Part shown: positions 7,423 through 58,470 of the stretch, in pieces
Position numbering within the stretch: the first letter of the stretch is position 1
Layout of the letters: each line of letters opens with the position of its first letter
Assembly: GCF_019039255.1 (NCBI RefSeq)
Contig: NZ_CP077062.1
Location: 2,108,001 to 2,172,000, forward strand
Direction of reading: 5' to 3'
DNA: 64,000 bases
Origin: Nocardioides panacis
GTDB lineage: Bacteria > Actinomycetota > Actinomycetes > Propionibacteriales > Nocardioidaceae
Notes under the pieces: model-generated
Told to the model about the DNA's origin: nothing
What the model saw: only the letters and a program-made list of their open reading frames with translations
Databases searched by the model: none
Program-made: the position numbers and the translations under genes

Positions 7423-7632
7423 TCACACGCACCAGCGGAGCGTCTCAGCGGTGAAGTCCGCCAAAGGGTGGACGCCCTCCAGATCGGGTCTCTGCTGCAG
7501 CAGCGCGGACAGGTCGCGCGCCCTTGCAGCCTCCCGGCGCTGCCGCGCCGCATGGTCCTGACTGCTCGCCGGAGGGCTCGTGGACACGGCCGTGGGTTCG
7601 CAGCGTGACGACCGGTTGTGGACCACCGTCAT
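7423..7632 (-). CDS. Small ORF translationally coupled to the TauD-like gene
   Basis: Unrecognised 69-residue ORF. Its ATG overlaps the stop of the dioxygenase gene as ATGA, the same coupling seen between other genes of this operon. The N-terminal half is Ser/Arg-rich; the end has more normal composition (LSALLQQRPDLEGVHPLADF). No family is recognised. The overlap and the open frame support it; composition alone does not. Confidence 0.42.
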   Translation of the reverse strand: MTVVHNRSSRCEPTAVSTSPPASSQDHAARQRREAARARDLSALLQQRPDLEGVHPLADFTAETLRWCV

Positions 7633-8516
7633 GACGCAGGTCTGCCCTTCTCGCCCGGTCCGACCGGCCGGTCCCCCTGCAGGGTGATGCGTCGCATGAC
7701 CCGGGTCTCGGTGTAGTCGCGGTTGGCGTAGTGCAAGGTGCAGCGGTTGTCCCAGATGCCCACGTCGCCGGCCTGCCAGCGGTGCCGGACGGTGTGCTCC
7801 GGCTTGGTGAGGTGGGCGTAGAGCAGGTCCAGGATCGCGCGGCTCTCGGCATCGGAGACCCCCACGACGTGGGAGGTGAAGCCGGGGTTCACGAACAGGC
7901 CCTTGCGCCCGGTCTCGGGGTGCACGCGGACGACCGGGTGCTCGACCGGCGACAGCCCGGTGACCTGCCGGCCGTCCCACACGTTGCCCTGGCCGCCGCG
8001 CCGCCGCAGGTACGCGCCCCACTCGCGGTCCCCGTCGTGCACGGCAGTGAGCCCGTCGACCAGGTCGCGCACCGGTGCGGACAACGACTCGTAGGCGAGC
8101 TGGCTGTCGACCCAGCTGGTGTCCCCGCCGTACGACGGGAGGCGGACCGCCCGCAGGATGGAGCCGAGCGGCGGTCGCTCCATGAAGGTCACGTCGGTGT
8201 GCCAGACGTCGGAGAAGGAGAACTCCGGGTCGGCGCTGTCGATGTTGTAGATCTCCGGGTGCTCGACCTCGGTGCTGGTCGCGACCGGGTGCCCGGCGGT
8301 CACGTCCCCGAGCCGATGGCCGAGGTCGACCTGGGCCGCGTCGTCGAGGTCCTGCCCGCGGAAGAAGATCACCTTGTGCTCGACCAGCGCCGCCCGCACG
8401 GCGGCGACCTGCTGGTCGTCGAGCGTCCGCAGGTCGAGGCCGATCACCTCGGCCCCGAAGGACGGGCCGAGCCTGTCGAGGGTCAGCGTCGTGGGCCGGC
8501 TCGGGGACTGGGTCAT
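7629..8516 (-). CDS. TauD/TfdA-family Fe(II)/2-oxoglutarate dioxygenase
   Basis: A 295-residue enzyme of the taurine dioxygenase superfamily. The iron ligands are visible: His106 and Asp108 (VWHTDVTF) and distal His262 (LHYANRDY). The 2-oxoglutarate-binding Arg is in TRVMRRIT (272-275). TauD oxidises taurine to sulfite plus aminoacetaldehyde; relatives act on alkyl sulfates or herbicide ethers. The position downstream of a sulfonate-type ABC transporter supports a sulfonate or sulfate-ester substrate used as sulfur source. It lies 24 bases after the permease gene, and its stop overlaps the small ORF at 7423. Confidence 0.9.
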   Translation of the reverse strand: MTQSPSRPTTLTLDRLGPSFGAEVIGLDLRTLDDQQVAAVRAALVEHKVIFFRGQDLDDAAQVDLGHRLGDVTAGHPVATSTEVEHPEIYNIDSADPEFSFSDVWHTDVTFMERPPLGSILRAVRLPSYGGDTSWVDSQLAYESLSAPVRDLVDGLTAVHDGDREWGAYLRRRGGQGNVWDGRQVTGLSPVEHPVVRVHPETGRKGLFVNPGFTSHVVGVSDAESRAILDLLYAHLTKPEHTVRHRWQAGDVGIWDNRCTLHYANRDYTETRVMRRITLQGDRPVGPGEKGRPAS

Positions 8517-8540
8517 CAGGACTCTCCTTCGTGGTGGGGG

Positions 8541-9386
8541 TCAGCGGCGCGTGGGGTCGATGCTGCGGTGGAAGAGCCGGAGCAGGGAGTCGAAGACGAT
8601 CCCGACGATCGAGATCGTGACGATCCCGCTCAGCACGAGTGGGGTCTGCAGGTTCACCCCGGCGTTGTTGATCAGGTAGCCGAGACCGGCGGTGGCCGCG
8701 ATCAGCTCGACCGCGACGATGCTGGTCCAGGCTCCGCCCATGGCCAGGCGCATGCCCGTGATGATCGCCGGCAGCGCGCTGCGCAGGCGAACGGTGACGA
8801 GGGTCCAGAACGGCGTGGCGCCGAGGCTCCGGGCCGCCTGCTCGAGCTCCTTCGGCACCGCGTCGAGCGCCGAGACGGTGGCGATGATCATGATCGGCAC
8901 GACGCCGACCAGGATCAGCAGGAACTTCGAGGTCTCGCCGATGCCGAACCACACGATGAACAGCGGGATGAAGGCCAGCGGGGGCAGCGGGCGGGTGATC
9001 TCGATGAGCGGGTCTACCAGGTGCCGAAGCAGCGGCACGGAGACCATCAAGCCGCCGACGGCCACCCCGATCAGCACCCCGACGCCCCAGCCGACCGCGA
9101 TCCGGCCCACGCTGACCAGCGCGTGCTGCCACAGTGTGTTGCCGACCACGGCCGGGTAGCGGGTGCTCATGTACTCCCAGAAGGTCCTCGCGGTCTCCTG
9201 GACGGTCGGCAGAAGCACCGCGTCGTCCTTGAGGTAGGCCAGCGCCTCCCACAGCAGCAGGGCCAGCACGATGCCGGCGGCGCCGTACAGGAGGCGCGAG
9301 GGCGACGCCGTACGACGGGCGCCGGGCAGCGTGAGCTCGGCAGGCTCCCCGGTGGCACGCGAGGTGGGCACGGTCTGGCTGCTCAT
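8541..9386 (-). CDS. ABC permease of taurine/sulfonate type
   Basis: A 281-residue inner-membrane permease of the TauC/SsuC class with about six hydrophobic segments. The EAA-type loop ELEQAARSLGATPFWTLVTV contacts the ATPase. The conserved PLPPLAFIPLFIVWFG stretch is typical of nitrate/sulfonate/taurine importers. Start at ATG 9386, overlapping the TGA of the ATPase gene as ATGA, which indicates translational coupling. Confidence 0.92.
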   Translation of the reverse strand: MSSQTVPTSRATGEPAELTLPGARRTASPSRLLYGAAGIVLALLLWEALAYLKDDAVLLPTVQETARTFWEYMSTRYPAVVGNTLWQHALVSVGRIAVGWGVGVLIGVAVGGLMVSVPLLRHLVDPLIEITRPLPPLAFIPLFIVWFGIGETSKFLLILVGVVPIMIIATVSALDAVPKELEQAARSLGATPFWTLVTVRLRSALPAIITGMRLAMGGAWTSIVAVELIAATAGLGYLINNAGVNLQTPLVLSGIVTISIVGIVFDSLLRLFHRSIDPTRR

Positions 9387-10174
9387 GCGTGGCTCTCTTC
9401 CAGCGCCTCGCGCACCTGGCGCTTGAGGTGGACGAACTCGAGGGTGTCGGTCAGCTCGAGCTCCCGCGGACGTGGCAGGTCGATGTCGAAGACGGCCCGG
9501 GTGCGTCCCGGCGTACCGGACATGACGCAGATCCGGTCGCCGAGCAGGACCGCCTCCTCCACGTCGTGAGTGACGAAGACGACCGTCATCCGGTCGCGCT
9601 CCCACAGGTGGAGCAGGAACTTCTGCATCGCGACCCGAGTGATCGCGTCGAGCGCGCCGAACGGCTCGTCCATCAGCAGCACCCGTGGCTGGTTGACCAG
9701 CACTCGTGCGAACGCCGCCCGGTGGCGCATGCCGCCGGAGAGCTCGTGCGGGTAGGCGTCCTGGGACCGGCCGAGCCCGACCGTGTCGAGCAGGCCGACC
9801 GCGCGACGCCGTACGTCGTCGCCGCGCTCGTGACGGGCCCGCGGTCCGTAGAGGACGTTGTCGAGCGTCGTGAGCCAGGGGAACAACATCGGCGTCTGGA
9901 ACAGCACCCCGCGCTCCGGACCCGGCCCCTTGACCGGCACGCCGTCGACCGCGAGCTCGCCGCTGTCGGGCTCCGAGAACCCGGCCAGCAGGTTCAGCAA
10001 CGTGGACTTGCCGCAGCCCGACGGGCCGAGCAGGCAGAGGAACTCACCGGGCCGGACGTCGAGGTCGAAGCCGTCGAGCGCCAGCCTCTCGCGGGCCTTG
10101 CGCGACCGGCCGGCGAACGACTTGCGAACGTTGCGGACCGAGACGGCGCCTTGCTCCGTGGCGATCGCGGTCAC
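9383..10174 (-). CDS. ABC ATP-binding protein of taurine/sulfonate type
   Basis: A 263-residue cytoplasmic ATPase for the importer. It has Walker A GPSGCGKST, a Q-loop FQTPMLFPWLT, signature LSGGMRHRAAFAR (Met instead of the usual Gln), Walker B VLLMDEPFGALD and H-loop VTHD. Start chosen at GTG 10174, which overlaps the TGA of the binding-protein gene as GTGA and has GGACGG at a suitable distance; a GTG at 10183 would put that site too close. Confidence 0.93.
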   Translation of the reverse strand: MTAIATEQGAVSVRNVRKSFAGRSRKARERLALDGFDLDVRPGEFLCLLGPSGCGKSTLLNLLAGFSEPDSGELAVDGVPVKGPGPERGVLFQTPMLFPWLTTLDNVLYGPRARHERGDDVRRRAVGLLDTVGLGRSQDAYPHELSGGMRHRAAFARVLVNQPRVLLMDEPFGALDAITRVAMQKFLLHLWERDRMTVVFVTHDVEEAVLLGDRICVMSGTPGRTRAVFDIDLPRPRELELTDTLEFVHLKRQVREALEESHA

Positions 10175-11205
10175 TTGTCGCACCCGTCCTTCAGCGCCTT
10201 GGCGGCGTAGCTGCCGTCGACGTGCGAGGTGATCTGGGCCGAGGTGGGGGCCGTCTTGGTGCGTCCCTGGTCGACCAAGAACTGACCGGTGAGCGCGTAG
10301 GCCTTCTCCAGCTCGCCGCCCTTGGCGAGCAGGGCGGTCTGGTCGGAGGCGGAGACGAACGGGATCACCTTGGTGGCGGCGAGCGCCTCGTCCGGCTTGG
10401 CCCCGACGATCTTCGCAGCAGTGGTGATGTAGGTGTCGGCGTCCGGGCCCGTGGCGACGGTCTGGGCCTTCATCACCTGGCAGACCACCTGCTGGACGAC
10501 CTCGGGGTTCTGCTTCGCGAAGTCGTCGGTCACCCCCAGCACGTTGATCGACGGGTAGCCGAGCTTGGCGATCTCCTCCGCGGTCACCACCTGACGCCCG
10601 CCGGCGTTGTCCTTCAGGTCGATCGCCTGGGCAATCTCGACGTACCCGGCGTCGATCCTCTTGGCCTTGTACGCCGCGGCGATTGCAGCCTCGCTCGGGA
10701 AGCCGACGACCTTCGCCGTGTCCTCGAGGCCCTGGGACTTGAGCCAGCCTCGGATCTCGAAGTCCTCCGAGGAGCCCTGCAGCGCGCCGATCGTCTTCCC
10801 GGCCAGGTCGGCGTTCGTCTTGACCGACGCCGGGACGACGAGCTGGGCCGCGTCGTAGTAGAGGCCGTAGATCACTTTCAGCTTGGTGTCGGTACTGATC
10901 GCGCCCACGACCGGCGGGTTCCCGACCCCTGCCACGAACGGGAACGCGCCACCGCGCAGCTCGGCCAGGCCGGCAACGCCTGAGTCAATCGGGGTGAGCT
11001 TGATCGTGGCGTCGACCTTGTCGGCCAGGCTGGGATTCCCGGCCACCAGGACCTCGGGTCCGATGGTCGCGCTCTGGAAGTAGCCGATGCCGATCTCGGT
11101 GTCCCCACCGCTGGCGGAGCTTGCGGAGCTGGTCGAGCTGCACGCGGCGAGCAGGACGAGTGCGGAGCTCGTGACGAGTGAGGCGAGCAGGGGCTTGGTG
11201 CGCAT
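10171..11205 (-). CDS. Substrate-binding lipoprotein of taurine/sulfonate ABC importer
   Basis: A 344-residue lipoprotein: signal peptide with lipobox LLAAC, then a Ser/Ala-rich linker and a NMT1/TauA-like domain (IGYFQSATIGPEVLVAGNP). It binds the substrate outside the cell and delivers it to the permease. First gene of a tightly coupled operon binding protein - ATPase - permease - dioxygenase. Taurine or another sulfonate is the likely ligand, inferred mainly from the dioxygenase partner. Confidence 0.9.
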   Translation of the reverse strand: MRTKPLLASLVTSSALVLLAACSSTSSASSASGGDTEIGIGYFQSATIGPEVLVAGNPSLADKVDATIKLTPIDSGVAGLAELRGGAFPFVAGVGNPPVVGAISTDTKLKVIYGLYYDAAQLVVPASVKTNADLAGKTIGALQGSSEDFEIRGWLKSQGLEDTAKVVGFPSEAAIAAAYKAKRIDAGYVEIAQAIDLKDNAGGRQVVTAEEIAKLGYPSINVLGVTDDFAKQNPEVVQQVVCQVMKAQTVATGPDADTYITTAAKIVGAKPDEALAATKVIPFVSASDQTALLAKGGELEKAYALTGQFLVDQGRTKTAPTSAQITSHVDGSYAAKALKDGCDK

Positions 11206-11851: not shown

Positions 11852-12025
11852 ACCTCCAACTCTGCCGCGATCCGGTCGTCCCTGAGGTGCGCGTGGTAGC
11901 CCGTACGTAGCCGGCCCCTCGCGCGCCCAATGCCCGCGAGCGGTTCGCCGCCCGTTCATTCTCGGTACCTCCCGCGGTCGAACAACCCTCCTAGCCTCGG
12001 CCGGGTCCTAGCGGGAGGAACCCCA

Positions 12026-12979
12026 ATGAAACGGACCCCGGCCGCTCGGGCGCGCGGGATCAGCAAGTACTACGGCAACCTCGTCGCTCTGGACGGCGTC
12101 GACCTCGATGTCGAACCGGGGCAGGTCCATGGGCTGGTCGGTCCCAACGGCGCGGGTAAGACGACGCTGCTGGGTCTCCTCCTCGGCGTGGCGACAGCGG
12201 ACGCGGGCACACTCGAGATTCTCGGCCGGCCGGTGGGACGCCCGCTCGCGATCGCCGACGGAGTCGCCGGCTTCGTCGACGGCCCCGGCCTCTACCCGTC
12301 GCTGACTGCCCGACAGAACCTGACCGCGGTCGCCTCGCTCCGCGGCATCCGCTCCGGACGTCCTCACCACGTCGACACCGCCCTCGAGCAGGCCGGGCTG
12401 ACCGACGTCGCCGACGTGCGCGTGCGCGGCTACTCGCTGGGGATGCGTCAGCGGTTGGGCCTGGCGGCAGCACTGCTCACCCGCCCACACCTGCTCATCC
12501 TCGATGAACCCTCGAACGGGCTCGACCCCGACGGCACGCGCCACGTCCATCGGCTCATCAACGAGCTCACGGACGCCGGCGTGGCGGTCGTCCTCTCCAG
12601 CCACCGGATGGACGACCTGGCCTCGCTGTGCGCCGAGGTGACGATCCTCGTGACGGGACGAGTCGTCTTCGCGGGCCCGGTCGAGAAGCTGGCTGCGGAG
12701 AGCGGTGAGCTGGACTACAGGCTCCAGACCTCCGACCCGGTCCGAGCCCGCGCGATCGCCGCAAGCACGCCGCACATCCGCCTGCACGGACCCGCCCGGG
12801 ATCGGCCACACTCCGAGGCGCTCGTGCTCAGCGGCCCGGTGCGATCGGTGGACGTCCTGGTGGCCCGGCTCGCCGACGCCGGTGTCGCCCTCCGCGGGCT
12901 GGCCCCGGTGATCACCCCGCTCGAGGCCGCGTTCCTCGCCCTCACCGGCGGCCAGGCCGACCCTGACGGTGCGGCATGA
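12026..12979 (+). CDS. ABC exporter ATPase, first paralogous module
   Basis: A 317-residue ATPase of the antibiotic/multidrug exporter type (BcrA/CcmA-like). It has Walker A GPNGAGKTT, signature YSLGMRQRLGLA, Walker B LLILDEPSNGLDPDG and H-loop SSHRMDD. Start ATG 12026 with GGGAGGAA six bases upstream. The gene overlaps the permease gene by four bases (ATGA). It is paralogous to the ATPase at 20913-21878: both share DGVAGFVDGPGLYP / DGVAGFIESPKFYP and the same C-terminal layout. It presumably powers the fused permease next door. Confidence 0.93.
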   Translation: MKRTPAARARGISKYYGNLVALDGVDLDVEPGQVHGLVGPNGAGKTTLLGLLLGVATADAGTLEILGRPVGRPLAIADGVAGFVDGPGLYPSLTARQNLTAVASLRGIRSGRPHHVDTALEQAGLTDVADVRVRGYSLGMRQRLGLAAALLTRPHLLILDEPSNGLDPDGTRHVHRLINELTDAGVAVVLSSHRMDDLASLCAEVTILVTGRVVFAGPVEKLAAESGELDYRLQTSDPVRARAIAASTPHIRLHGPARDRPHSEALVLSGPVRSVDVLVARLADAGVALRGLAPVITPLEAAFLALTGGQADPDGAA

Positions 12980-14313
12980 CCACCACCGCGGTGCCGACCG
13001 ACGCGCTGGACCGGGCGGCGCCGCTGCTTGCCGGCTGCCGGTTCGAGCTCACCAAGCTGCTCACCCAGTGGCGGATCCGCCTCATCCTGCTGGCCTGCCT
13101 GGTCGCACCCGGCTGCTTCGTCGCGGTCATCGGCTCGCAGTCGTCGCTGCCGACGGACACGGTCTTCGGTCGCGCGATGCACGCCACCGGCTGGGCCGGA
13201 CCGCTGGTGGTCCTTGCGTTCGCGTGCAGCTGGGGCCTGCCCTTGCTGACCTCGCTGGTCGGCGGCGACGTCTTCGCGGTCGAGGACCGGCTCGGCACCT
13301 GGCGGCACCTCCTCGTCGCGGTCAGGTCCCCGCGCAGGATCTTCCTTGCCAAGGCGGTCGCCAGCCTCACCGTCATCGTGCTCTTGATGACCGCCCTGTG
13401 CGCCTCGGGCGTCGCCGGCGGACTACTCGCGGTCGGGAGCCACCCGCTCACCGGGCTCGACGGCCACACCCTCGCGTCCGCCGAGGCGGCTCGAGTGGTC
13501 CTGGTCGCCTGGGTGTGCGTGCTGCCGCCCACGCTCGCGTTCGCCGCCGTCGGCCTGCTCGGCTCGGTCGTGCTCGGTCGCTCGCCGATGGGGTTGCTGG
13601 TGCCTGCCCTGCTCGCCCTGGCGATGAACCTCGTGCTGCTGCTGCCGGTCCCGGTCGCCGTCCGGCTCGCGCTGCCGAGCAACGCCTTCCTCGCCTGGCG
13701 CGGCCTGTTCACCGAGCCCGCACGGACCGGGCCGCTGCTCATCGGCATCGCCGTCAGCCTCGCCTGGGCCGCGGTCGCGACCGCTCTGGCGTACCTGCTG
13801 TTCGTGCGCCGTGACTTCACCGACCTCGCCTACGACGGCGCCGGCCGGCGAGCCCTGGTCACGGCGGTGCTCCCGCTGGCCGCGCTCGTCGCGGTCACCG
13901 CCCTCGTCGTCGCCGCTGCCACCTCGGGCGCCGGGTCGGGTATCGGCCGGCACAAGCTCGAGGCCGCCCTGACGACCGCCTACGCCCACCTCTACCGGCT
14001 GCAGACCGAGCAGCTGCACCGGCCCGCGGTGACCGAGGCCGACCTGCACGCCAGCGCCGCCTGCGACAAGGGCGGAGACCGGGTGGCCGATCGCGGTCCC
14101 GGCAACGACTGGCGGTGCGTCGTGTCCTGGCGGCTGCCCGGCTCGACCGCCGAGGGCTCCGCGATCTACCAGCTCGACGTGACCGCGGAGGGGCGGTACG
14201 TCGCGGACGGAGACGGACCGAAGGAGGTGAACGGCTTCTTCTCGGTGCGCACCCCGTCCGGCGACGCACCCAACCCGCTGTGGCAGTTCGACGGCTACGT
14301 CGACCTGCTCTGA
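12976..14313 (+). CDS. ABC-2 type permease fused to an extracellular CDK...DWxC domain
   Basis: A 445-residue fusion. Residues 1-285 form a six-segment ABC-2 permease. An extra membrane helix (about 295-315) is followed by an outside domain (about 320-445). The permease half matches the protein at 20029-20916 (QSSLPTDTVFGR vs QSRPPKDTLFGR; GDVFAVEDRLGTW vs GDVFASEDQHGTW). The outside domain matches the separate protein at 19239-20024 (LHASAACDKGGDRVADRGPG vs LHAKAMCDKHGPDVADVGPG). Coupled to the ATPase by ATGA. The exported substrate is unknown. The fused/unfused pair indicates that the domain works at the outer face of the transporter. Confidence 0.88.
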   Translation: MTTTAVPTDALDRAAPLLAGCRFELTKLLTQWRIRLILLACLVAPGCFVAVIGSQSSLPTDTVFGRAMHATGWAGPLVVLAFACSWGLPLLTSLVGGDVFAVEDRLGTWRHLLVAVRSPRRIFLAKAVASLTVIVLLMTALCASGVAGGLLAVGSHPLTGLDGHTLASAEAARVVLVAWVCVLPPTLAFAAVGLLGSVVLGRSPMGLLVPALLALAMNLVLLLPVPVAVRLALPSNAFLAWRGLFTEPARTGPLLIGIAVSLAWAAVATALAYLLFVRRDFTDLAYDGAGRRALVTAVLPLAALVAVTALVVAAATSGAGSGIGRHKLEAALTTAYAHLYRLQTEQLHRPAVTEADLHASAACDKGGDRVADRGPGNDWRCVVSWRLPGSTAEGSAIYQLDVTAEGRYVADGDGPKEVNGFFSVRTPSGDAPNPLWQFDGYVDLL

Positions 14314-14345
14314 TCCCGATCGTCTCCTGAAGGGAACCACCCACC

Positions 14346-17123
14346 ATGCACGCTGTACGTCAGCGCAGACAAGTGACCGGCGTCCGTCCCGGGCTCCTCG
14401 CACAACCCAGGCTGAGGCTCGTCCTCGCCGGCACCGCGGCCCTCGCGGTCGTCGGCAGCGGGGCCGCCTACGGCACAACCACGATCTTCGGCGAGAACGT
14501 GGTCGGGCAGGAGTACGCCAACGGCCTGCAGATCTCCTCCGACCAGATCCTCAAGCCGCTCGGTGAGCGGCTGATGACGCCGTACGGCAAGTTCATGGGC
14601 AGCACGGTCAGCCCGGACGGCCGCTTCCTGGTGACCACCTCCAACGACCGCTCGGTGTCGCTCCAGGTCTTCGACCTCTCGACCTACCGGCTCATCTGGC
14701 GAGCCGGCACCGCCTCGGGCGTCAACCTCCGGCTCACCGACAACACCGTCGGCCAGGAGGGACCGGCGTACTCGCCGGACGGCGCGTACCTGTTCATGCC
14801 GAACGCCACCGGCATCAGCCGGTTCCCGGTGAACCCCGACGGCACCCTGGCGGCCCCGACCAAGTTCTCCCTCCCGACCGTCGACGGCAAGCGGGCCCTG
14901 ACCGGCGGCCTGACGTTCTCCGCCGACGGCAACACCCTGTACGCCGCCGTCAACGGCCAGAACACGGTCGTCGCGATCGACCCGGCCACAGGCCTCACCA
15001 CGCGCAGCTGGAACGTCGGCATCGCCCCCCGCCAGGTGAAGCTCGTCGGCGACAAGCTGTACGTCACCAACGAGGGCGGTCGACCCGCGACGGCCGGTGA
15101 GGCCACCCAGGACTCCTACGGCACCGCGGTGCCCGCCGACCCCACCTTGGGCACCTCCACCCACGGCACGCTCAGCGTCATCGACCCGACCGCCGCGGGC
15201 GGTGCCGTCGGCACGATCAAGGTGGGCCTGCACCCGACCGCGATGTACACCAGAGGCACGGTGCTGTACGTCGCCAACACCAACGACGACACCGTCTCGG
15301 TCGTGGACACGATCCGGGACCGCGTCGTGCAGACCGTCGCGACCCAGCCGTGGCGCGGGTCGAAGGTCGGCTACGAACCGACCGGCATGACGGTGCAGGG
15401 CGGCCGACTGCTGGTCAGTCTCGGCCGCGCCAACGCGATCGCCGTCTACAAGCTCGGGAAGGGCCCGCTCGACCCGGTCAGCTACGTCGGGCTGGTGCCC
15501 ACCGACTACTACCCCGAGGACGTCTTCACCGTCGGCGGCGGGACCGTGGTCGCGAACCGCCGCGGTATCGACGCGCGCGGACAGAAGATCACGTCCAACC
15601 AGGGGTACGGCACCACACCGGCAACGGCGTACGGCACGCACGGCACCACCGCCTCGCTGACCCGGTTCACGCTCCCCAGTGACGGGACCATCCGCGACAC
15701 GTACACCCCGCAGGTGTTCGCCCAGAACGGCTGGGGTGACGCGGACACCGACGTGAAGCACGCCAGCGGTGGCCGGGCTGTCCCGGCGGTGCCAGTCCCG
15801 CGGCGGATCGGCGATCCCTCGACCATCAAGCACGTCTTCCTGGTGGTCAAGGAGAACCGGACCTACGACCAGGTGTACGGCGACATGCCCGAGGGAAACG
15901 GCGACGCGACCCTCGCGCAGTTCGGCCAGCAGACGACGCCCAACCAGCACGCGCTGGCCCGCCAGTTCGGCCTGTACGACAACACCTACGACGTCGGCAC
16001 CAACTCCGCGGAGGGCCACAACTGGCTGATGCAGGGCGACAACCCGGAGTACACCGAGTCCAGCGCCGGCGAGTACACCCGCTCCTACGACACCGAGGAG
16101 GACGTCCTGGGTCACCAACGCTCCGGCTTCCTCTGGACCGCGATCCAGGCGGCGAACCGGACGGCCCGCAACTACGGCGAGTTCGAGTACACCGAAGGCA
16201 AGCCGTCGGGCTCCTGGCAGCAGTACTACTGCGCGGTGAAGAGCGTGGAGAGCGGCGGTGACCCCGCCCAGCTCACCACCCCGGAGCTGAAGGGCAACTA
16301 CGGGTCGGTCATCCCCTCGCTGAACGCGATCACCGACCCGCTCGCCCCGCCGTTCGACCTGTCGATCCCGGACGTGTACCGCTCCCAGATCTGGAAGCAT
16401 GACTTCCAGCGGAACGGTCCGGCCGACTTCCAGATGCTGTGGCTCTCGAGCGACCACACCGGCGGCCCCTCGACCCCCCGTGCCGCCGTGGCCGACGGCG
16501 ACCTCGCGGTGGGCAACGTGGTCGACACCATCTCGCACAGCAAGTACTGGAAGAACTCCGCGATCTTCGTGGTCGAGGACGACAGCCAGGCCGGTGTCGA
16601 CCACGTCGACGGCCACCGGGCACCCATCCAGGTGATCAGCCCCTGGGCGGCCCACGGCAAGACGATCTCGACGTACTACTCGCAGATCTCGATGGTCCGC
16701 ACCATCGAGCAGATCCTCGGCGCGGAGCCGCTGAACCAGAAGGTCGCCGCAGCGACCCCGATGTTCGACGCGTTCCGGTCCAGGGCGGACAACACACCCT
16801 TCACCAGGGTGCCCAACCAGATCCCGCTGACCGAGAACGTCAACCCCGCTCCCCTCTGTGGACCGGACTCGCCGGCGGGCGCGCCGGCGGCCCCCACCGT
16901 GGGGGCAGCAGACGCTCCGACCGCGAAGGCCTGGGGCACCTGGGCCCAGAAGCAACACTTCACCGGCCGCCAGGCCAAGGCCGACTACGCCCACCCCGAG
17001 CTGATGAACCGCTACACGTGGTACCAGACGCACAACTGGAAGACGCCCTACCCCGGCGACCCGAAGGTGTACCTCCCCGAGCAGGTGCCGGGCGGTTACA
17101 TCCCGTCACCGGAGACCGACTGA
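14346..17123 (+). CDS. Secreted beta-propeller/phosphoesterase fusion protein
   Basis: A 925-residue exported protein. After an N-terminal hydrophobic signal or anchor (about 25-45) come YVTN-type beta-propeller repeats (about 70-430; VSPDGRFLVTTSNDRSV, LYVANTNDDTVSVVDT). A phosphoesterase domain follows (from about 490, HVFLVVKENRTYDQVYGDM), of the family related to acid phosphatases and phospholipase C. It lies 32 bases after the fused permease with AAGGGAA as ribosome site, so it belongs to the first exporter module. Substrate unknown; a cell-envelope phosphodiester or phosphomonoester is a guess. Confidence 0.9.
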   Translation: MHAVRQRRQVTGVRPGLLAQPRLRLVLAGTAALAVVGSGAAYGTTTIFGENVVGQEYANGLQISSDQILKPLGERLMTPYGKFMGSTVSPDGRFLVTTSNDRSVSLQVFDLSTYRLIWRAGTASGVNLRLTDNTVGQEGPAYSPDGAYLFMPNATGISRFPVNPDGTLAAPTKFSLPTVDGKRALTGGLTFSADGNTLYAAVNGQNTVVAIDPATGLTTRSWNVGIAPRQVKLVGDKLYVTNEGGRPATAGEATQDSYGTAVPADPTLGTSTHGTLSVIDPTAAGGAVGTIKVGLHPTAMYTRGTVLYVANTNDDTVSVVDTIRDRVVQTVATQPWRGSKVGYEPTGMTVQGGRLLVSLGRANAIAVYKLGKGPLDPVSYVGLVPTDYYPEDVFTVGGGTVVANRRGIDARGQKITSNQGYGTTPATAYGTHGTTASLTRFTLPSDGTIRDTYTPQVFAQNGWGDADTDVKHASGGRAVPAVPVPRRIGDPSTIKHVFLVVKENRTYDQVYGDMPEGNGDATLAQFGQQTTPNQHALARQFGLYDNTYDVGTNSAEGHNWLMQGDNPEYTESSAGEYTRSYDTEEDVLGHQRSGFLWTAIQAANRTARNYGEFEYTEGKPSGSWQQYYCAVKSVESGGDPAQLTTPELKGNYGSVIPSLNAITDPLAPPFDLSIPDVYRSQIWKHDFQRNGPADFQMLWLSSDHTGGPSTPRAAVADGDLAVGNVVDTISHSKYWKNSAIFVVEDDSQAGVDHVDGHRAPIQVISPWAAHGKTISTYYSQISMVRTIEQILGAEPLNQKVAAATPMFDAFRSRADNTPFTRVPNQIPLTENVNPAPLCGPDSPAGAPAAPTVGAADAPTAKAWGTWAQKQHFTGRQAKADYAHPELMNRYTWYQTHNWKTPYPGDPKVYLPEQVPGGYIPSPETD

Positions 17124-17241
17124 CACCGGCCACGCGCGCCGTAGTGGGACGGCGGCGCCAGGACGGTTCCTGGACCGAAGACGGCGCTGACGAGTGGGGT
17201 GTGGCTGGGCTGCTGATCCCCCGTGACCGCGCGTGAACGGG

Positions 17242-17745
17242 CTATCGGAGCCAGCGGTGGTGCGAGGGCCGACCGACGGTGGTGGCCCGTCGGGCGATCT
17301 CGGCGCGCAGTGCGGCAGGGGTCGATGCCTCACGTCCTTGCAGCCGCCAGAGCAGCGGCTCGTCCCCTCCGTCCAGGAACGCCTGCTCGCCGGCCTCGAA
17401 CAGCACCCGCTGCGTGAGCAGGCAGTCCTCGTGCTCGACCAGGACGGTCTGCTCCTCGTCGGCGCGGTGGTCGGCGGCGTCCGTCCAGGGCGGGAGATCG
17501 GTGAACCTCTCCATGCGCCGGACGAACGCGTCGTACTCCGGGCTGTCGAGGTAGGCGAGCGACGCGTGCATGCTCGCGCGGTAGTGATCCTGCAGATGCA
17601 CGGCGACCCGGGTCCGCGTCCGGGAGCCGTCGCGGTCCGGGCCCTCGTCCTGGAGCAGGGCGTCGATGCGACTTCGTACGCTCTCGGCGTCACGAGACTC
17701 GCTGACCGCCGCCGCGGTGCCCCTCAGCTCCCGCACGAGACGCAC
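17242..17745 (-). CDS. CHAD-like protein, apparently only the C-terminal half
   Basis: A 167-residue helical protein. VRELRGTAAAVSESRDAESV resembles the middle CHAD motif (LRxLxxxLGxxRDxxV), and LAYLDSPEYDAFVRRMERF fits the following helices. The usual N-terminal half with the His/Arg-rich motif is missing. CHAD domains bind polyphosphate. Either this is a truncated copy or a divergent short form. Its start codon is GTG and no good ribosome site is visible. Confidence 0.5.
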   Translation of the reverse strand: MRLVRELRGTAAAVSESRDAESVRSRIDALLQDEGPDRDGSRTRTRVAVHLQDHYRASMHASLAYLDSPEYDAFVRRMERFTDLPPWTDAADHRADEEQTVLVEHEDCLLTQRVLFEAGEQAFLDGGDEPLLWRLQGREASTPAALRAEIARRATTVGRPSHHRWLR

Positions 17746-17901
17746 CGTAGCGACTCCAGGTGAACAACGGCAACCTGCGCGCAGATGAACATTCGGAGTT
17801 ACCCGCCCGTACGCGGGACCGGTCCTGGTCGAGCGGGAGGCGGTGGCCCGGCTGGTCCCGCAGAGGAACCGGCGGTCACGGGCTCCCGTCTGACCCGGTG
17901 C

Positions 17902-18321
17902 TCACTGCAGGGCGGCGAGCAGCTCTGCTTTCGACTTCCGCGACAGGCCGGGGATCCCCCGACGACGGGCTTCCGCGCGCAGCTCGGCAACGGTCCAGGT
18001 GCCGTCGGGGCCCTTCGCACCGGGCGCGGCATCCACCGAGGCCACCTGCCCCGGGCGTGCTGAAGCCACCTCGATCGGGGCCGGAGGGACCTCGACACGA
18101 GACGCCGCCTCCGCGCTGACAGTCGCCTTCCTCTCCTTCTTCAGGCGCTTCTCCGCCAGCTTGAGTCGAGCCTGGAGGTCGGCGGTGACGGCCTCCGCCT
18201 TGACCGCGCGCTTCTTCCACTTGTCGCGCTTCGACTCCGCGCTCGCCAGCCGGGACCGGAGCATCTTGACCTCTGCCTTGTCAGGCTTGGCCGAGCTCGA
18301 CTTGACCTTCTTCGTCGCCAT
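17902..18321 (-). CDS. Lys-rich coiled-coil protein with C-terminal SAP/Rho-N-like motif
   Basis: A 139-residue protein. The first 70 residues are very rich in Lys, Arg, Glu and Ala and should form a coiled coil (EVKMLRSRLASAESKRDKWK). The C-terminus (WTVAELRAEARRRGIPGLSR plus KSKAELLAAL) looks like the helix-extended-helix motif of SAP or Rho N-terminal domains, which bind nucleic acid. A role as a nucleoid or RNA-associated protein is inferred. Start ATG 18321 has GGAGGAG a few bases upstream. Confidence 0.75.
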   Translation of the reverse strand: MATKKVKSSSAKPDKAEVKMLRSRLASAESKRDKWKKRAVKAEAVTADLQARLKLAEKRLKKERKATVSAEAASRVEVPPAPIEVASARPGQVASVDAAPGAKGPDGTWTVAELRAEARRRGIPGLSRKSKAELLAALQ

Positions 18322-18609
18322 GGGTCTCCTCCGTCGGGAAGGCACCAGGATGCACCATCGAGCAGCAGACCACACCGTGCTGCCACTCGTCGGCCGAGGG
18401 GCTCGCTGAAGTTCTCGTGAACCGCAGCAGAGCGGGGGACAAACCTCCGGTGAACGACGAACACAGCGCCACGGTCGTATTCCCCGCGACCCCGGCGTCT
18501 GATGCACTTGATGGGAGAGCCCGCGGCGGTTCGAACGTCGTACCTGGCCGTGGAGGGCCCGGGCTGCGGATGCCCCGGCCCAACTGAGCGACGACCTCCG
18601 GGAGGTGCT

Positions 18610-19041
18610 GTGACCGGGCCCAAGCGGATCCAGCTGTCTCGGACGAAGGGATGGCGGAGACCGGAGAGCGCGGTCGTGGTCGCCCGGCCGGGCCGGTGGG
18701 GCAACCCGTTCGAGATCGGCACCCGGGTCGCCGCCTACCTCGACCACCGACCAGGCGAGGATCCGCTCTGGCGGTGGGGCGACCTCGGGCAGTACGACGG
18801 CGACCACCGCCTGACCCGCGCCGAGTCCGTGGCGGCGTTCCGCGCGTGGGTCAACCGCTCGATCGGGCCGTCCGGCTTCCACCGGTCCTACGAGGCCAAG
18901 CTCGAGCTCGCCGGGCGCGACCTCGCCTGCTGGTGCCCCCTCGACGAGCCCTGCCACGCGGACGTGCTGCTGGCGATCGCCAACGACGGTCCGCACGCAC
19001 CAGTCACTCAGCCCAGCGCGCCGGTGCGCCACCCGTCCTGA
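18610..19041 (+). CDS. DUF4326 family protein
   Basis: A 143-residue protein with the DUF4326 hallmarks VARPGRWGNPFEIG near the N-terminus and LACWCPLDEPCHADVLL near the C-terminus. The family is common in phages and actinobacteria and its role is not known; the Cys/His cluster may bind metal. Start GTG 18610 with GGGAGG five bases upstream. It is a lone gene without phage neighbours. Confidence 0.85.
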   Translation: MTGPKRIQLSRTKGWRRPESAVVVARPGRWGNPFEIGTRVAAYLDHRPGEDPLWRWGDLGQYDGDHRLTRAESVAAFRAWVNRSIGPSGFHRSYEAKLELAGRDLACWCPLDEPCHADVLLAIANDGPHAPVTQPSAPVRHPS

Positions 19042-19238
19042 GCCGCCTTGGCAGCGGGCTGGTTCCAGTCCTCGTAGTCGGCCGTGCCGGCCGGGCCGCA
19101 GGGCGTCTGCGGCTACGACGACTGGATCAGCCACCCGTCGTACGCTCCTGGCAGAGAGTCACCCGGTTACCGGAGGCACCTGCTGAATGTGCGCTCCGGG
19201 TCCTGCGACAGCGTGCGAACAGCCGCCCAGGCGTTCCG

Positions 19239-20024
19239 CTACTGCACAGGGAGCGTGACCGGGTCCGGTGAGCTGAACCCGTCGGTGGCCTTGACCTGGA
19301 ACGCCACCTCCTTGGTCCCGCTCGGCAGCGGTGTCGTGAAGCGGACCGCGGCGGTCGACTCCTCCTTCAGCTTGAACGGCACGGTCCCGAGGTTGGTGTT
19401 CCCCGCCCTCGCGGTGATGGTGCCGGCGCAGCCCTGGCTGCCGGTGCCGCAGGTGACCTGAGGGCCCACGCGTCCATCCCCGTCCGGGGTGACCGACGGG
19501 CTGGAGATGGCGAGCACCGAGGGGTAGAACACGCCGGTGGCCGTGTTGCTGGTGGCCGGGTCGAAGCAGCCGTCGAACTCGAAGACCGGGTTGGTGACCT
19601 CTCGCCCGTGCTGGTCGGTCAGGTTCAGGAAGCCGGTGAGCTTGCTGGGGCCGGCGGCGGTGTAGCAGTCGTTGCTGTGCACGTTGAGCTCGAACTTGCC
19701 GTAGCCCTCCGAGGGCATCGGGACGTTCGGGTCGGTCCAGCTCATCAAGCAGATCCAGTCGCCGCCCGGTCCGACGTCGGCGACGTCGGGGCCGTGCTTG
19801 TCACACATGGCTTTGGCGTGCAGGTTCTTGGGCGTGACGCCGGTGCGGCCGAGCAGGTGCGCCTGCTGGACGTACAGGTTGGAGAACACGCCGGGCAGGT
19901 TCCGTTCGAGGCGGGCTCGGGTGACGGTGCTCCCGCCGCTGCCGGCGGCTGCGACCGCGGCGACGCCGCCGAGGACTGCGACAGCGAGTACGGCGGCCAG
20001 GATGGTGGTCAGGGTGCGGCGCAT
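19239..20024 (-). CDS. Exported CDK...DWxC domain protein of the second exporter module
   Basis: A 261-residue protein with an N-terminal membrane segment or signal (LTTILAAVLAVAVLGGVAAV). The middle domain (about 35-155) is homologous to the extracellular part of the fused permease at 12976: VADVGPGGDWICLMSW, LTGFLNLTDQHGREVTNPVF. It carries paired cysteines that could form disulfides outside the cell. A second part (about 165-261), not found in the fused version, looks like a beta-sandwich. It lies four bases after the permease gene, so it is co-transcribed with its transporter. Confidence 0.85.
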   Translation of the reverse strand: MRRTLTTILAAVLAVAVLGGVAAVAAAGSGGSTVTRARLERNLPGVFSNLYVQQAHLLGRTGVTPKNLHAKAMCDKHGPDVADVGPGGDWICLMSWTDPNVPMPSEGYGKFELNVHSNDCYTAAGPSKLTGFLNLTDQHGREVTNPVFEFDGCFDPATSNTATGVFYPSVLAISSPSVTPDGDGRVGPQVTCGTGSQGCAGTITARAGNTNLGTVPFKLKEESTAAVRFTTPLPSGTKEVAFQVKATDGFSSPDPVTLPVQ

Positions 20025-20028
20025 GGGG

Positions 20029-20916
20029 TCAGCCTCCAGTGATGTCGCGACGACGGAGCAGGGCGAAGGCCGCGGTCAGCGACACGAGGCTCCACAGGGC
20101 ACAGACCAGCACGCCTTCGACGAGCGGTCCGGTGAAGCCGGGGGTGGTGAACAGGCCGTGCCAGGACTCGAACGAGGTCGTGAGCAGCAGCGGGCGGATG
20201 GCCTCGATGCCGCCGAGGGAACCGACGAGCTGCATCACCATGCCGAGGACGACCGGGGTGGCGATGCCGACCGCCGGGTTGCGGGACCAGACCGACAACA
20301 AGATGGCCAGGCAGGTGAACGCGAGCATGGCGGGAAGCGTGGCGGCCCAGGCGCCGGCCACGAGCCGGAGGGCGGTCCCGGAGCCGATGGTCTGCCCGGA
20401 CAGCCCGGTGAGTGGCTGGTGGCCGACGATGAGCAGGCTCGAGACGATGGTGGACGCGGCCAGGAGCACCAGCACGAGTACGGCGAACCCGCACGCGGTG
20501 AGCGTCTTGGCCCAGAAGAGCCGGCCCCGGCTGGTGGAGCGCGTCAGGACGGTCTTCCAGGTGCCGTGCTGGTCCTCGCTGGCGAACACGTCCCCGGCGA
20601 CGATGGCCGTCAGCAACGGCAGCACCCACTGCGCCGCGAACCCGAGGACGAGCAGCGCGAGCGCGTACCCGTTGTCGGTCGCGAACCGGCCGAACAGGGT
20701 GTCCTTGGGCGGCCGGGACTGCCCGTGGATGACGAACACCACGGGGATGGGCCCGAGGACGGCGCCGAGCAGGACGGCCTTGGCGCGGTGCTGGGCGCGC
20801 AGCTTGCGGGTCTCCCACCGCAGCGCGGCACCCAGCCCCGGTCGGCGGCGCACCTGGCGGGCAAGGTCTTCACGGGTCAGCGGAGCTGACGGCGGCGTCG
20901 CTTGGGTGGTGGTCAT
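20029..20916 (-). CDS. ABC-2 type permease, second paralogous module
   Basis: A 295-residue permease with about six membrane segments. It shares with the fused permease at 12976 the stretches LPLLTAIVAGDVFASEDQ, GHQPLTGLSGQT and WHGLFTTPGFTGPL. It lacks the extra helix and outside domain, which here is encoded by the next gene. Start ATG 20916 overlaps the ATPase stop (ATGA), so the two subunits are translationally coupled. Confidence 0.9.
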   Translation of the reverse strand: MTTTQATPPSAPLTREDLARQVRRRPGLGAALRWETRKLRAQHRAKAVLLGAVLGPIPVVFVIHGQSRPPKDTLFGRFATDNGYALALLVLGFAAQWVLPLLTAIVAGDVFASEDQHGTWKTVLTRSTSRGRLFWAKTLTACGFAVLVLVLLAASTIVSSLLIVGHQPLTGLSGQTIGSGTALRLVAGAWAATLPAMLAFTCLAILLSVWSRNPAVGIATPVVLGMVMQLVGSLGGIEAIRPLLLTTSFESWHGLFTTPGFTGPLVEGVLVCALWSLVSLTAAFALLRRRDITGG

Positions 20917-21878
20917 CGAACGGCCCCTTCGAGGCTGGTGCTGCCGGTGGCGGCGGCTCGGTGCGCGGTGTCGTCGGTGAGCATGAAGAAGAGCGCCTCC
21001 AGGGGCGTCTCGGTCGGGGTGTAGGCGAGCAGATCGATCTCGGCACGGAGCAGGGCGGCGAGGTAGTTCGACACGTCGTGTTGTGGACCGGTCACCGCCA
21101 GCGCGTCGTCGGGTCCCCGCCGCACGCTCACCACCGGGTGGGTCGCGGCGAGAGCGAGCGCTCGGTCGTCGTCGGTGGTGCTGACCAGGTGTCCGGGGAG
21201 CGGCGCCATCGCTCGCAGGTCCGCGATGGTGCCGTGGAAGGCGACGGTGCCCTTCCGCATGATGGTGACGTTGTCGCAGATCTCCTCGACCTCGTCCATG
21301 TGGTGCGAGCTCAACAGCACGGTCAGGCCGCTCGCCGCGAGGCGCTTCACCAGGGCACGCATGTCCCGGATGCCGGCCGGGTCGAGCCCGTTCGCGGGCT
21401 CGTCCAGGACCAGGAGGCGCGGTTCGCGCAGCAGGCTCGCGGCGACGCCGAGTCGTTGGCGCATGCCGTAGGAGTAGCCGCCGACCTTCTGGTCGGCCCG
21501 GTCGGCGAGGTCGACGATGTCGAGGACCTCGGTCATCAGCCCGGGTCGCGCGCCGCCGTCGAGCAGGGCGAGCCCTTCCAGGTTCTGCCGACCGGTCAGG
21601 TACGGGTAGAACTTCGGCGACTCGATGAACCCGGCGACGCCGTCCAGGACCGCGACCCCGGCGTCCTCCCAGGTCCGACCGAACACGCGGACGGTGCCGG
21701 AGTCGGGCTTGATGAGCCCGAACAGCATCCGCAGGAACGTGGTCTTCCCCGCGCCGTTCGGGCCGAGCACGCCGTACACCTCGCCCTGAGCGACCTGGAC
21801 GGAGATGTTGTCGACCGCCCGCAGCGACCCGAAGGCCTTGCTGACGCCTACCGCCTCGACGGCTAGTTCTTCTGTCAT
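20913..21878 (-). CDS. ABC exporter ATPase, second paralogous module
   Basis: A 321-residue ATPase: Walker A GPNGAGKTT, signature YSYGMRQRLGVA, Walker B LLVLDEPANGLDPAG, H-loop SSHHMDE. Start chosen at ATG 21878; no ribosome site is present, but TAGCGT lies seven bases upstream, which fits a leaderless transcript starting at this codon. A start at 21914 would add 12 unmatched residues. A 9-base inverted repeat covers the start region (21872-21908), suggesting tight repression of the module. Confidence 0.93.
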   Translation of the reverse strand: MTEELAVEAVGVSKAFGSLRAVDNISVQVAQGEVYGVLGPNGAGKTTFLRMLFGLIKPDSGTVRVFGRTWEDAGVAVLDGVAGFIESPKFYPYLTGRQNLEGLALLDGGARPGLMTEVLDIVDLADRADQKVGGYSYGMRQRLGVAASLLREPRLLVLDEPANGLDPAGIRDMRALVKRLAASGLTVLLSSHHMDEVEEICDNVTIMRKGTVAFHGTIADLRAMAPLPGHLVSTTDDDRALALAATHPVVSVRRGPDDALAVTGPQHDVSNYLAALLRAEIDLLAYTPTETPLEALFFMLTDDTAHRAAATGSTSLEGAVR

Positions 21879-21908
21879 GTCGCGAACGCTAGGGACACAA
21901 CGTGACAG
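21872..21908. promoter_or_regulatory. Inverted repeat over the exporter start, operator candidate
   Basis: CTGTCATGT (21872-21880) and ACGTGACAG (21900-21908) are inverted copies with one mismatch, separated by 19 bases. The left arm covers the ATG of the ATPase gene and the TAGCGT -10-like box lies between the arms. Such a dyad would fit a repressor dimer pair blocking a leaderless promoter. No regulator gene lies next to it. Confidence 0.5.
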
Positions 21909-22290
21909 AAGCATGAATCGGGCAGATCACGCTCCACGGGTCAAGTGGGTCCAACGCCCCGCCCACCGATCGAGGACCCGAGCACTGGCTGCGCCGCTCG
22001 TGCCCGTGACCCGATCGCCCGTCAGGCTGAGGGCGGCCTCAGCTGTCGGCGGCCGGGCAGGAGGAGTCTTGAGCAGTGCCGGCTGCGAGGACCGCACGGG
22101 CGGCTCTGGGTCCCGATACGCCGCGCAATGGCCCGGCTAGCGTTCGTTGTGCATGCAGAAGATGGGGCGTAACGTCACAGGAACCGAGTCTTCTTCGCTT
22201 CCCGCATTCAGCGGCGGCATTCCCGGCGAAGCAACGCGGGAGCGGGCCCAGACCCTGCACGTCTCTCAGGAACCCCTGGAACGAGCCCCC
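21909..22290. other. Divergent intergenic region
   Basis: This lies between the leftward exporter operon and the rightward STAS gene. An open frame extends from 22147 into the STAS gene but its composition is not protein-like. Apart from the dyad at its left edge nothing could be assigned. Confidence 0.35.
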
Positions 22291-53052: not shown

Positions 53053-53896
53053 CCGAGATCCGCTCGGCATGACACCGAGGGCCCAGCGGCGGCGGACACA
53101 GGCCGTGCTCAGCCGTCGCGCGCTGCTGCGGGCGAGCGTCCGCCCCGACGCCCGGACGATGCCCGGGGCGCCTGACCGCTCACGCCCAGGAACGCCGCGC
53201 CACCTTCACGATCGGCGTGAGGTGGAGCTCCCGGGACCCCGCCCTTCGATGGAGGTCGCCAGCTCGCGGTCGATCCAACGCCCGATCACCTCGACCACGT
53301 AGGCCCGCTCGCCGCGGTCGAGCCGATGCCCCTTCGCGATGCCGTGCCACGTCGCCAGGCAGCTGCGGCAGCAGGTCGCGGTGGCGTGCTGGGCCACGAA
53401 GACCGGGTGGTTGCGGTAGGGGGTCTGCCGGCCGTCGTTGCGCGGCTCGGCCGGCGCCAGCCGCTCCGCGATGATCTCCGCGGCGTGAGCCCGCATCGTC
53501 TGCGGACCGCGCAGCTCAGCCGTAGCCCGCTCGCGCCCGCGCAGGTGGAACCGCCGCCCGAACGGTCGCGCGCTCGCGCGGTCAATCCGGTCATCGATCT
53601 CGGCGGGGTCGGGCACGCCCCCAGACTAGGCACGGCACGGTGGCCGACGACGAGGCCAAGACCGGCCGGGTCGCCGTGGGGCTGCGAACCACCAGTGCCC
53701 GAAGGCGCGACAAAGAGGAAGTGGAACAGCCACACGTCTTCCTCGGCCAGCTCGACCAGCGGCGGTCGCGGACCCGAAGCGCCAGGGCACCGATCACGGC
53801 GAGGTACCGGAACCCCGGACCCGAACCCGAACCCGGACCAATGCCGGGCATCGCACGACCGTGCCGCGCTCTGGCACTTGCGGTCATCCGGATCTG
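53053..53896. repeat. Copy A of a large direct repeat containing a DUF4186 gene
   Basis: Corresponds to 57644-58470. The stretch 53249-53810 is identical to 57842-58403 (562 bases). The left 190 bases differ at scattered positions. The right end has an extra CCCGAACCCGAACCCGG-type insertion. Similarity stops at GGATCTG, next to the IS110 element. Confidence 0.9.
53206..53616 (-). CDS. DUF4186 family protein, copy A
   Basis: A 136-residue protein. The DUF4186 core is intact: RNDGRQTPYRNHPVFVAQHA followed by TATCCRSCLATWHGIAKGHR, with a CCxxC and two His likely to bind metal. The function is unknown. GTG 53616 has TAGTCT six bases upstream, compatible with a leaderless message. Differs from copy B only near the C-terminus (SIEGRGPG vs SMEGRDPG). 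Confidence 0.85.
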   Translation of the reverse strand: MPDPAEIDDRIDRASARPFGRRFHLRGRERATAELRGPQTMRAHAAEIIAERLAPAEPRNDGRQTPYRNHPVFVAQHATATCCRSCLATWHGIAKGHRLDRGERAYVVEVIGRWIDRELATSIEGRGPGSSTSRRS

Positions 53897-57643: not shown

Positions 57644-58470
57644 CCGAGATCCGCTCGGCGTGACACCGAGGGCCCAGCGGCGGCGGACACAGGCCGTGCT
57701 CAGCCGTCGCGCGCTGCCGCGGGCGAGCGCGTCTGCCCCAACGCCCGGACGATGTCCGGGGCGCCTGACCGCTGACACCCAGGAACGCCGCGCCACCTTC
57801 ACGATCGGCGTGAGGTGGAGCTCCCGGGGTCCCGACCCTCCATGGAGGTCGCCAGCTCGCGGTCGATCCAACGCCCGATCACCTCGACCACGTAGGCCCG
57901 CTCGCCGCGGTCGAGCCGATGCCCCTTCGCGATGCCGTGCCACGTCGCCAGGCAGCTGCGGCAGCAGGTCGCGGTGGCGTGCTGGGCCACGAAGACCGGG
58001 TGGTTGCGGTAGGGGGTCTGCCGGCCGTCGTTGCGCGGCTCGGCCGGCGCCAGCCGCTCCGCGATGATCTCCGCGGCGTGAGCCCGCATCGTCTGCGGAC
58101 CGCGCAGCTCAGCCGTAGCCCGCTCGCGCCCGCGCAGGTGGAACCGCCGCCCGAACGGTCGCGCGCTCGCGCGGTCAATCCGGTCATCGATCTCGGCGGG
58201 GTCGGGCACGCCCCCAGACTAGGCACGGCACGGTGGCCGACGACGAGGCCAAGACCGGCCGGGTCGCCGTGGGGCTGCGAACCACCAGTGCCCGAAGGCG
58301 CGACAAAGAGGAAGTGGAACAGCCACACGTCTTCCTCGGCCAGCTCGACCAGCGGCGGTCGCGGACCCGAAGCGCCAGGGCACCGATCACGGCGAGGTAC
58401 CGGGCTCCGGACCAATGCCCCGCATGGCACGACCGTGCCGCGCTCTGGCACTTGCGGTCATCCGGATCTG
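57644..58470. repeat. Copy B of the large direct repeat containing a DUF4186 gene
   Basis: Same orientation as 53053-53896. The core 57842-58403 is identical to copy A; the flanks have several substitutions and indels. The distance between copies is about 4.6 kb, and everything between (IS110, hypotheticals, MOSC) would be lost by recombination between them. Confidence 0.9.
57799..58209 (-). CDS. DUF4186 family protein, copy B
   Basis: A 136-residue protein identical to copy A except at the C-terminal end. The metal-binding-like segment ATATCCRSCLATWHGIAKGH is intact. Both copies keep an open frame, the same GTG start and the TAGTCT box, so both could be expressed. Confidence 0.85.
   Translation of the reverse strand: MPDPAEIDDRIDRASARPFGRRFHLRGRERATAELRGPQTMRAHAAEIIAERLAPAEPRNDGRQTPYRNHPVFVAQHATATCCRSCLATWHGIAKGHRLDRGERAYVVEVIGRWIDRELATSMEGRDPGSSTSRRS

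Follow-up and report, generated by a model that had tools for sequence, protein, structure and literature searches.

A conserved and apparently unnamed two-branch family of ABC-2 exporters with a fused or separate outer domain in Actinomycetota

INTRODUCTION

When a small domain is joined to a transporter in one gene cluster and is encoded separately in a related cluster nearby, does it work with the transporter, and what might the two accomplish together? This question is raised by a 64,000-nucleotide stretch of DNA from Nocardioides panacis (contig NZ_CP077062.1, positions 2,108,001 to 2,172,000; hereafter the window), part of a 4.9 Mb single-contig genome whose closest named relatives are Nocardioides. 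Two facing modules in the window each encode an ATP-binding cassette (ABC) ATPase, an ABC-2 permease, and a domain predicted to lie outside the membrane, here called the outer domain. The analysis indicates that they belong to a real, conserved, two-branch ABC-2 exporter family that is apparently unnamed, although no new category of transport system needs to be created for it. What is gained is the definition of this family in Actinomycetota, an outer domain that is undescribed in the libraries searched, and two regulatory clues.

RESULTS AND DISCUSSION

Two modules built from the same parts

An earlier note, made from the window's letters alone, had claimed that the modules carry homologous ATPases and ABC-2 permeases, and the six genes involved lie where it placed them (Table 1). 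Comparison of module 1 with module 2 by BLASTP gives 43% identity over 308 amino acids for the ATPases (E 3e-76), 42% over 264 ungapped amino acids for the permeases (E 8e-54), and 39% over 124 amino acids for the outer domains (E 2e-23). Chance is excluded by a wide margin for all three homologies. Two motifs that had been read by eye, CDK..G..VAD.GPG.DW.C..SW in the outer domain and GDVFA.ED..GTW in the permease, are indeed found in both modules.

The permease of module 2 stops where that of module 1 goes on into a seventh helix and then the outer domain, so that the proposed extra helix and outside domain are both present; the same domain is a separate exported protein in module 2. Module 1 also encodes the predicted secreted beta-propeller/phosphoesterase, in which YVTN propeller repeats can be seen and Pfam family PF04185 passes its cutoff. 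These are the only two copies of the outer domain in the genome. Because the domain is fused in one module and separate in the other, it likely works with the transporter.

Table 1. Features of the two modules, with positions in the window
Feature	Positions	Strand	Module	Details
Type I ABC ATPase (PF00005)	12026..12979	+	1	
Type I ABC-2 permease (PF12730) fused to outer domain	12976..14313	+	1	
Seventh hydrophobic helix	13855..13911	+		Residues 294-312; joins permease to outer domain
Outer domain, fused form	13942..14310	+		Residues 323-445; two cysteines
DGDGPKEVNG loop	14206..14235	+		Residues 411-420; co-occurs with phosphoesterase
Secreted or anchored YVTN propeller with PF04185 phosphoesterase	14346..17123	+		Phosphoesterase half 15795-17120
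Type II separate exported protein	19239..20024	-	2	Outer domain plus immunoglobulin (Ig)-like domain
Outer domain, separate form	19554..19925	-		Residues 34-157; four cysteines
C-terminal Ig-like domain of separate protein	19242..19523	-		Residues 168-261
Type II ABC-2 permease	20029..20916	-	2	Six helices
Type II ABC ATPase	20913..21878	-	2	
PHO-box-like 11-bp direct repeat	11943..11964	+		GTTCGCCGCCC GTTCATTCTCG; 83 nt before type I ATPase start
Promoter remnant	21886..21917	-		TTCAT, a second TTCAT that is degenerate (GTCAC), and TAGCGT -10; layout shared with type II loci retaining a two-component system

Conserved neighborhoods and two lineages

With a two-sequence profile, the outer domain was recovered from 6 of 296 genomes sampled phylum-wide; a larger profile recovered it from 30 of 395 genomes sampled within the class, and profile searching of 58 related genomes found it in 16. 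At least 79 named GTDB loci carry it, and among the matches listed all are Actinomycetota, including Nocardioides, Streptomyces, Micromonospora, Actinomadura, Kineococcus, Frankia, Solirubrobacterales, and others. In total, 107 copies were gathered; some represent one genome present in two collections, and the locus counts given here are not independent events. Neighboring genes were called with a codon-usage script of our own, then clustered and labeled. No paper on this gene set was found in the literature.

A permease is adjacent or fused for all 107 copies except three that are cut by contig ends (L039, L040, and L086) and one deletion remnant (L049). Thus, homologs do not lie mostly without ABC partners: every intact, informative copy sits with an ABC-2 permease, and those that lack a partner are cut off by a contig end, are left over from deletions, or match very weakly. 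This pattern agrees with the argument from fusion. One distant relative from Thermoleophilia (L011/L175; E 3e-4), a lipoprotein without ABC genes, was judged too weak to count.

The loci fall into two lineages. Type I, to which module 1 belongs, has the plan ATPase, fused permease and domain, and YVTN-propeller/PF04185 phosphoesterase. The ATPase is directly upstream of the intact fused gene in 55 of 55 cases. The phosphoesterase adjoins in 53 of 54 informative loci: in 49 it comes immediately after the fused gene, and in 4, from Thermoleophilia, it immediately precedes the ATPase. The remaining type I loci are one contig-end cut and L089, which has no adjacent phosphoesterase and carries copies elsewhere in its genome. 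No further recurrent neighbor was seen at type I loci besides these two genes. Among about 56 related genomes, close phosphoesterase orthologs and the outer domain occur in exactly the same 15.

Type II, the lineage of module 2, has the plan ATPase, permease, and separate domain, the last often a lipoprotein, without the phosphoesterase; no close phosphoesterase was present in the 10 genomes in which only type II was found. The earlier note had looked for a recurring neighborhood with both ABC-2 permeases and the phosphoesterase. The permease part holds in both lineages, and the phosphoesterase part in type I only. Some loci are intermediate: L071 and L176 combine a separate lipoprotein domain with a phosphoesterase, and in the Kineococcus loci L170 and L171 the domain is separate and a remote phosphoesterase is encoded on the other strand.

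In trees of ATPase plus permease, and of the permease alone, type I forms one clade (100/100). Type II occupies the other side of both trees, and the intermediates lie near its base. In a Rhodococcus plasmid gene (L003), permease and domain are again joined in frame, and because this gene is nested within type II, the fusion had a single origin in type I and possibly a second in L003. This gene retains an internal ribosome-binding site and a lipobox and therefore may yield either one protein or two. Deletion remnants or fragments of domain or permease genes were seen at L049, L010, L054 (2160-2597), L032, L033, and L169, suggesting frequent loss. At L100 (8092-8094), from a Marmoricola metagenome-assembled genome, a lone in-frame stop divides a type I permease from its domain, which could be either a sequencing error or genuine splitting.

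The outer domain and a loop that tracks the phosphoesterase

No family in Pfam, NCBIfam, or the PDB sequences matched the outer domain, and a PDB sequence search with its profile gave no match up to E 10. Thus, the domain was not found to belong to a known, unrelated family. A Pfam scan of 49 members returned scattered weak matches and nothing else; DUF6346 matched 6 of the 49 (best E 0.0026), and since these matches are weak and under the cutoff where shown, it was not assigned. Structure prediction suggests one long helix with antiparallel strands rather than a beta-helix. Fold searches covered whole proteins only, and the matches were taken over by the C-terminal Ig-like domain for the separate protein and by the permease part for the fused one.

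A loop of the form DGD-x-P-x-x-[ILV]-NG, with most positions invariant, is present in all type I domains and, apart from intermediates L071 and L176, absent from type II. It is poorly ordered in the monomer model. Fusion, loop, and enzyme occur together in 61 cases. In L071 and L176 the domain is separate and both loop and phosphoesterase are present; in L003 the domain is joined to the permease and both are missing; the remaining separate forms have neither the loop nor a close phosphoesterase. The loop thus tracks the phosphoesterase, not the fusion. It is read here as a putative contact or hand-over element for that enzyme, with physical contact presumed from this co-occurrence.

The means of attachment also differ. 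A second cysteine pair is found in most separate forms and is missing from fused forms, a pattern consistent with lipid or signal anchoring having been swapped for a transmembrane helix. The separate domain carries a lipobox in about half of type II loci.

Regulatory signals differ between the lineages

The PHO box of the actinobacterial PhoP regulon is characterized by 11-bp periodicity and a GTTC core, with GTTCACC in Streptomyces coelicolor (PMC4415409; PMC7866108). Both features are matched by a direct repeat upstream of type I operons. The pattern GTTY-N7-GTTY precedes 35 of 56 type I loci (43 of 56 if one position is relaxed), compared with 9 of 966 other genes (0.9%) and 1 of 21 type II loci, and type I upstream regions are enriched for such repeats at a spacer of 7 only. 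In the window the box reads GTTCGCCGCCCGTTCATTCTCG. The genome has just four exact GTTCRNC-N4-GTTCRNC sites, of which two are intergenic and lie before pstS and phoX. The type I operon thus looks like part of the phosphate-starvation (PhoP) response, although PhoP control in vivo is inferred from these sites.

Regulators of a different kind accompany type II. Excluding the window's own locus, 30 of 31 informative loci lie beside either an OmpR-type two-component system (12 loci) or a BlaI repressor with an M48/M56 peptidase, the latter being the arrangement in Frankiaceae. The Frankiaceae loci hold 26 TACTA-N9-TAGTA palindromes in 205 kb, compared with none in 1157 kb of other loci, and 15 of 16 loci have one or two copies between BlaI and the ATPase. 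BlaI targets are described as carrying inverted repeats in pairs (PMC8457756). Type II loci with a two-component system instead have TTCAT-N6-TTCAT and a TAGCGT-like -10 element immediately before the ATPase start. These associations point to a lineage switched on by envelope-stress or antibiotic-stress regulators.

The window's type II copy retains a remnant of this promoter (Table 1), no two-component genes are adjacent to it, and it has lost its regulator. A candidate orphaned cognate system elsewhere in the genome was rejected, as only paralogs were found (48% for the regulator, 40% for the kinase). Upstream of type II ATPase genes, for instance at L172, L200, L201, and window positions 21876-21917, the -10 box sits about 10 nt ahead of the ATG, a spacing suggestive of leaderless transcripts.

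The phosphoesterase

The window enzyme scores 48.4 bits with PF04185 (cutoff 23). The E-N pair, D-D pair, and D-H motif of its C-terminal half align with AcpA, and E503, N504, D745, and D746 are at least 97% conserved, remote homologs included. The metal-site E-N and D-D pairs are common to PF04185 enzymes such as the acid phosphatase AcpA, PC-PLC, and plant NPC proteins; their counterparts in plant NPC4 (E23, N24, T158, D299, and E300) bind metal or catalyze reactions on phospholipids (PMC9837106). By position, S554 is probably the nucleophile. Hydrolysis of a phosphoester is therefore predicted from conserved residues, and acid-phosphatase and PC-PLC models both match weakly and do not separate phosphatase from phospholipase. 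Unlike these relatives, the window protein has an N-terminal YVTN propeller, an anchor-like N-terminus, and co-encoding with an ABC exporter, and it falls below the cutoffs of TIGR03396 and TIGR03397.

Extra close propeller/phosphoesterase copies with no transporter nearby occur in Actinopolymorpha and relatives (L163, L164, L165, and L166), and two of them sit among other PF04185-like genes. In one congener (L151, G298:C1:2257268-2259792) the type I phosphoesterase is disrupted by stops and an apparent frameshift, and the fused permease is intact.

Possible functions of the family

The earlier note had guessed at envelope maturation, or at export of a peptide or glycan. Taken jointly, the observations fit a reading in which a tethered outer domain aids an ABC-2 exporter, with type I serving a phosphate-starvation phosphoesterase and type II responding to envelope stress; a probability of about one-half is assigned to it. 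The complex would consist of the ATPase and the single six-helix permease, presumably two of each. A signal anchor or lipid in type II, and the extra permease helix in type I, would hold the outer domain at the membrane. ATP-driven movement of the permease might push or lift a membrane-active or lipid-like substrate outward, where the domain, positioned above the exit, could receive or gate it. In type I, the loop might dock the propeller/phosphoesterase or pass material to it, and the machine would free phosphate at the cell surface, from a phosphoester that is either a membrane lipid or an exported molecule. In type II, the transporter and domain would act alone, induced by two-component systems or BlaI/M56.

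Several points weigh against this reading. The window's repeat is by itself not significant (4 such patterns in 64 kb, with 1.9 expected), its second unit is degenerate, and the repeat statistics overall are inflated by kinship among loci. The tracking of enzyme by loop depends on few independent events (L071, L176, and L003), and orphan phosphoesterase copies occur in Actinopolymorpha. Furthermore, the direction of export is assumed because of the ABC-2 fold, and the links to phosphate, stress, and substrate are themselves deduced from sequence.

A more specific proposal, considered doubtful at present, is export-coupled dephosphorylation under phosphate starvation, in which material would pass from exporter to surface domain to phosphoesterase, and the pump with its domain would have been separately recruited to envelope-stress defense. 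If true, such a hand-over would be a way for an ABC exporter to couple with an extracellular hydrolase. The predictions are testable: an ABC exporter under phosphate-starvation control, a ten-residue loop as the contact for the phosphoesterase, and a related pump in Frankia controlled by BlaI.

The most serious rival, which also seems unlikely, holds that both types serve in self-protection or detoxification, as do the lantibiotic immunity and resistance transporters LanFEG/CprABC. The outer domain would be a LanI-like binding protein for immunity, the pump would expel a membrane-active antibiotic, and the type I enzyme would inactivate a phosphorylated compound or repair damage. An ABC-2 six-helix permease, a LanF/DrrA-like ATPase, and an anchored extracytoplasmic accessory protein are shared with those systems, and the lantibiotic-protection and drug-exporter models are the best scoring for the window ATPases. 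Nevertheless, every curated cutoff (310 and 312 bits) is missed: TIGR03740 (LanF-type) gives 203 bits (P0006) and 163 bits (P0001) against 309.75, and the drrA model gives 173 bits (P0001). The permeases match MutG weakly, and at every locus read, the window's included, an operon has one permease gene rather than LanE plus LanG. Type II resembles Cpr systems in combining a two-component system, an ABC transporter, and a lipoprotein (PMC5786555), or else has BlaI/M56 and as many as two palindromes in a promoter, as described for BlaI targets (PMC8457756). However, the accessory lipoprotein and neighboring two-component system are matched by type II only, and the window's own copy has no regulator next to it; the Frankiaceae arrangement differs; and the outer domain is unrelated. 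No recurrent biosynthetic genes lie beside the loci, and the near-obligate phosphoesterase and PHO-like control that type I adds are left unexplained.

The exporter reading must also be weighed against a NosDFY-like maturation role, in which the transporter would release no substrate and would instead move the outer domain so that the propeller/phosphoesterase is loaded, folded, or positioned. In the maturation of nitrous oxide reductase, NosFY with NosD serves NosZ, a propeller enzyme, and the set of ATPase, permease, outer protein, and propeller enzyme resembles nos clusters. NosY is the best structural match to the permease model (Z 20.4, 3.0 Å over 235 residues, 18% identity), and the tracking of phosphoesterase by loop would fit. 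Yet the scores of other ABC-2/ABCG permeases differ by no more than about 2 Z units, and the match thus mostly reflects a common fold. NosD is a beta-helix, whereas the outer domain is predicted to be a small alpha+beta domain that is fused in type I, and the client here would be a PF04185 phosphoesterase. No nosD, nosL, or nosZ genes are recurrent neighbors, and no NosL- or NosZ-like genes were seen. Moreover, no enzyme partner accompanies the transporter and domain in type II, and orphan phosphoesterases occur. This role therefore appears improbable.

Least likely of all is mere co-regulation of separately acting phosphate-starvation genes (for example, export of a phosphate-free envelope component and hydrolysis of external phosphoesters), which the PHO-like boxes, the variable gene order with the enzyme before the ATPase in Thermoleophilia, and the orphan enzymes would allow, but contact is suggested by linkage that is nearly perfect over many families and by the loop, which goes with the enzyme and not with the fusion.

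Other known systems resemble the family in part. Pyrroloquinoline quinone (PQQ) alcohol-dehydrogenase clusters also encode an ABC-2 type ATPase with a YVTN propeller protein; here the propeller is fused to a phosphoesterase, and neither TIGR03864 (140-143 bits on the ATPases against 302) nor TIGR03866 (45 bits on the propeller against 287) is passed. The exporter-type BceAB systems, which sense and detoxify peptides, likewise have an extracytoplasmic permease domain and an associated two-component system, but BceB has ten helices with its extracellular domain between helices VII and VIII (PMC5786555), compared with six or seven helices and a C-terminal domain here. As the earlier note had supposed, comparisons with known transporter systems gave no named system of this composition.

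Other features of the window

Just past the phosphoesterase gene, and convergent with it, lies a fragment of a CHAD-domain protein (PF05235; 17242-17736, minus strand), which is not a conserved neighbor elsewhere; CHAD domains bind polyphosphate. On the minus strand at 7629-11205, genes for a TauD-like dioxygenase, an ABC permease, an ATPase, and an NMT1-like binding protein form a sulfonate-type uptake cluster unrelated to the exporter modules. Finally, two 300-nt copies spanning a DUF4186 gene (53136-53435 and 57729-58028) are 97% identical and 4.6 kb apart, and represent a recent duplication.

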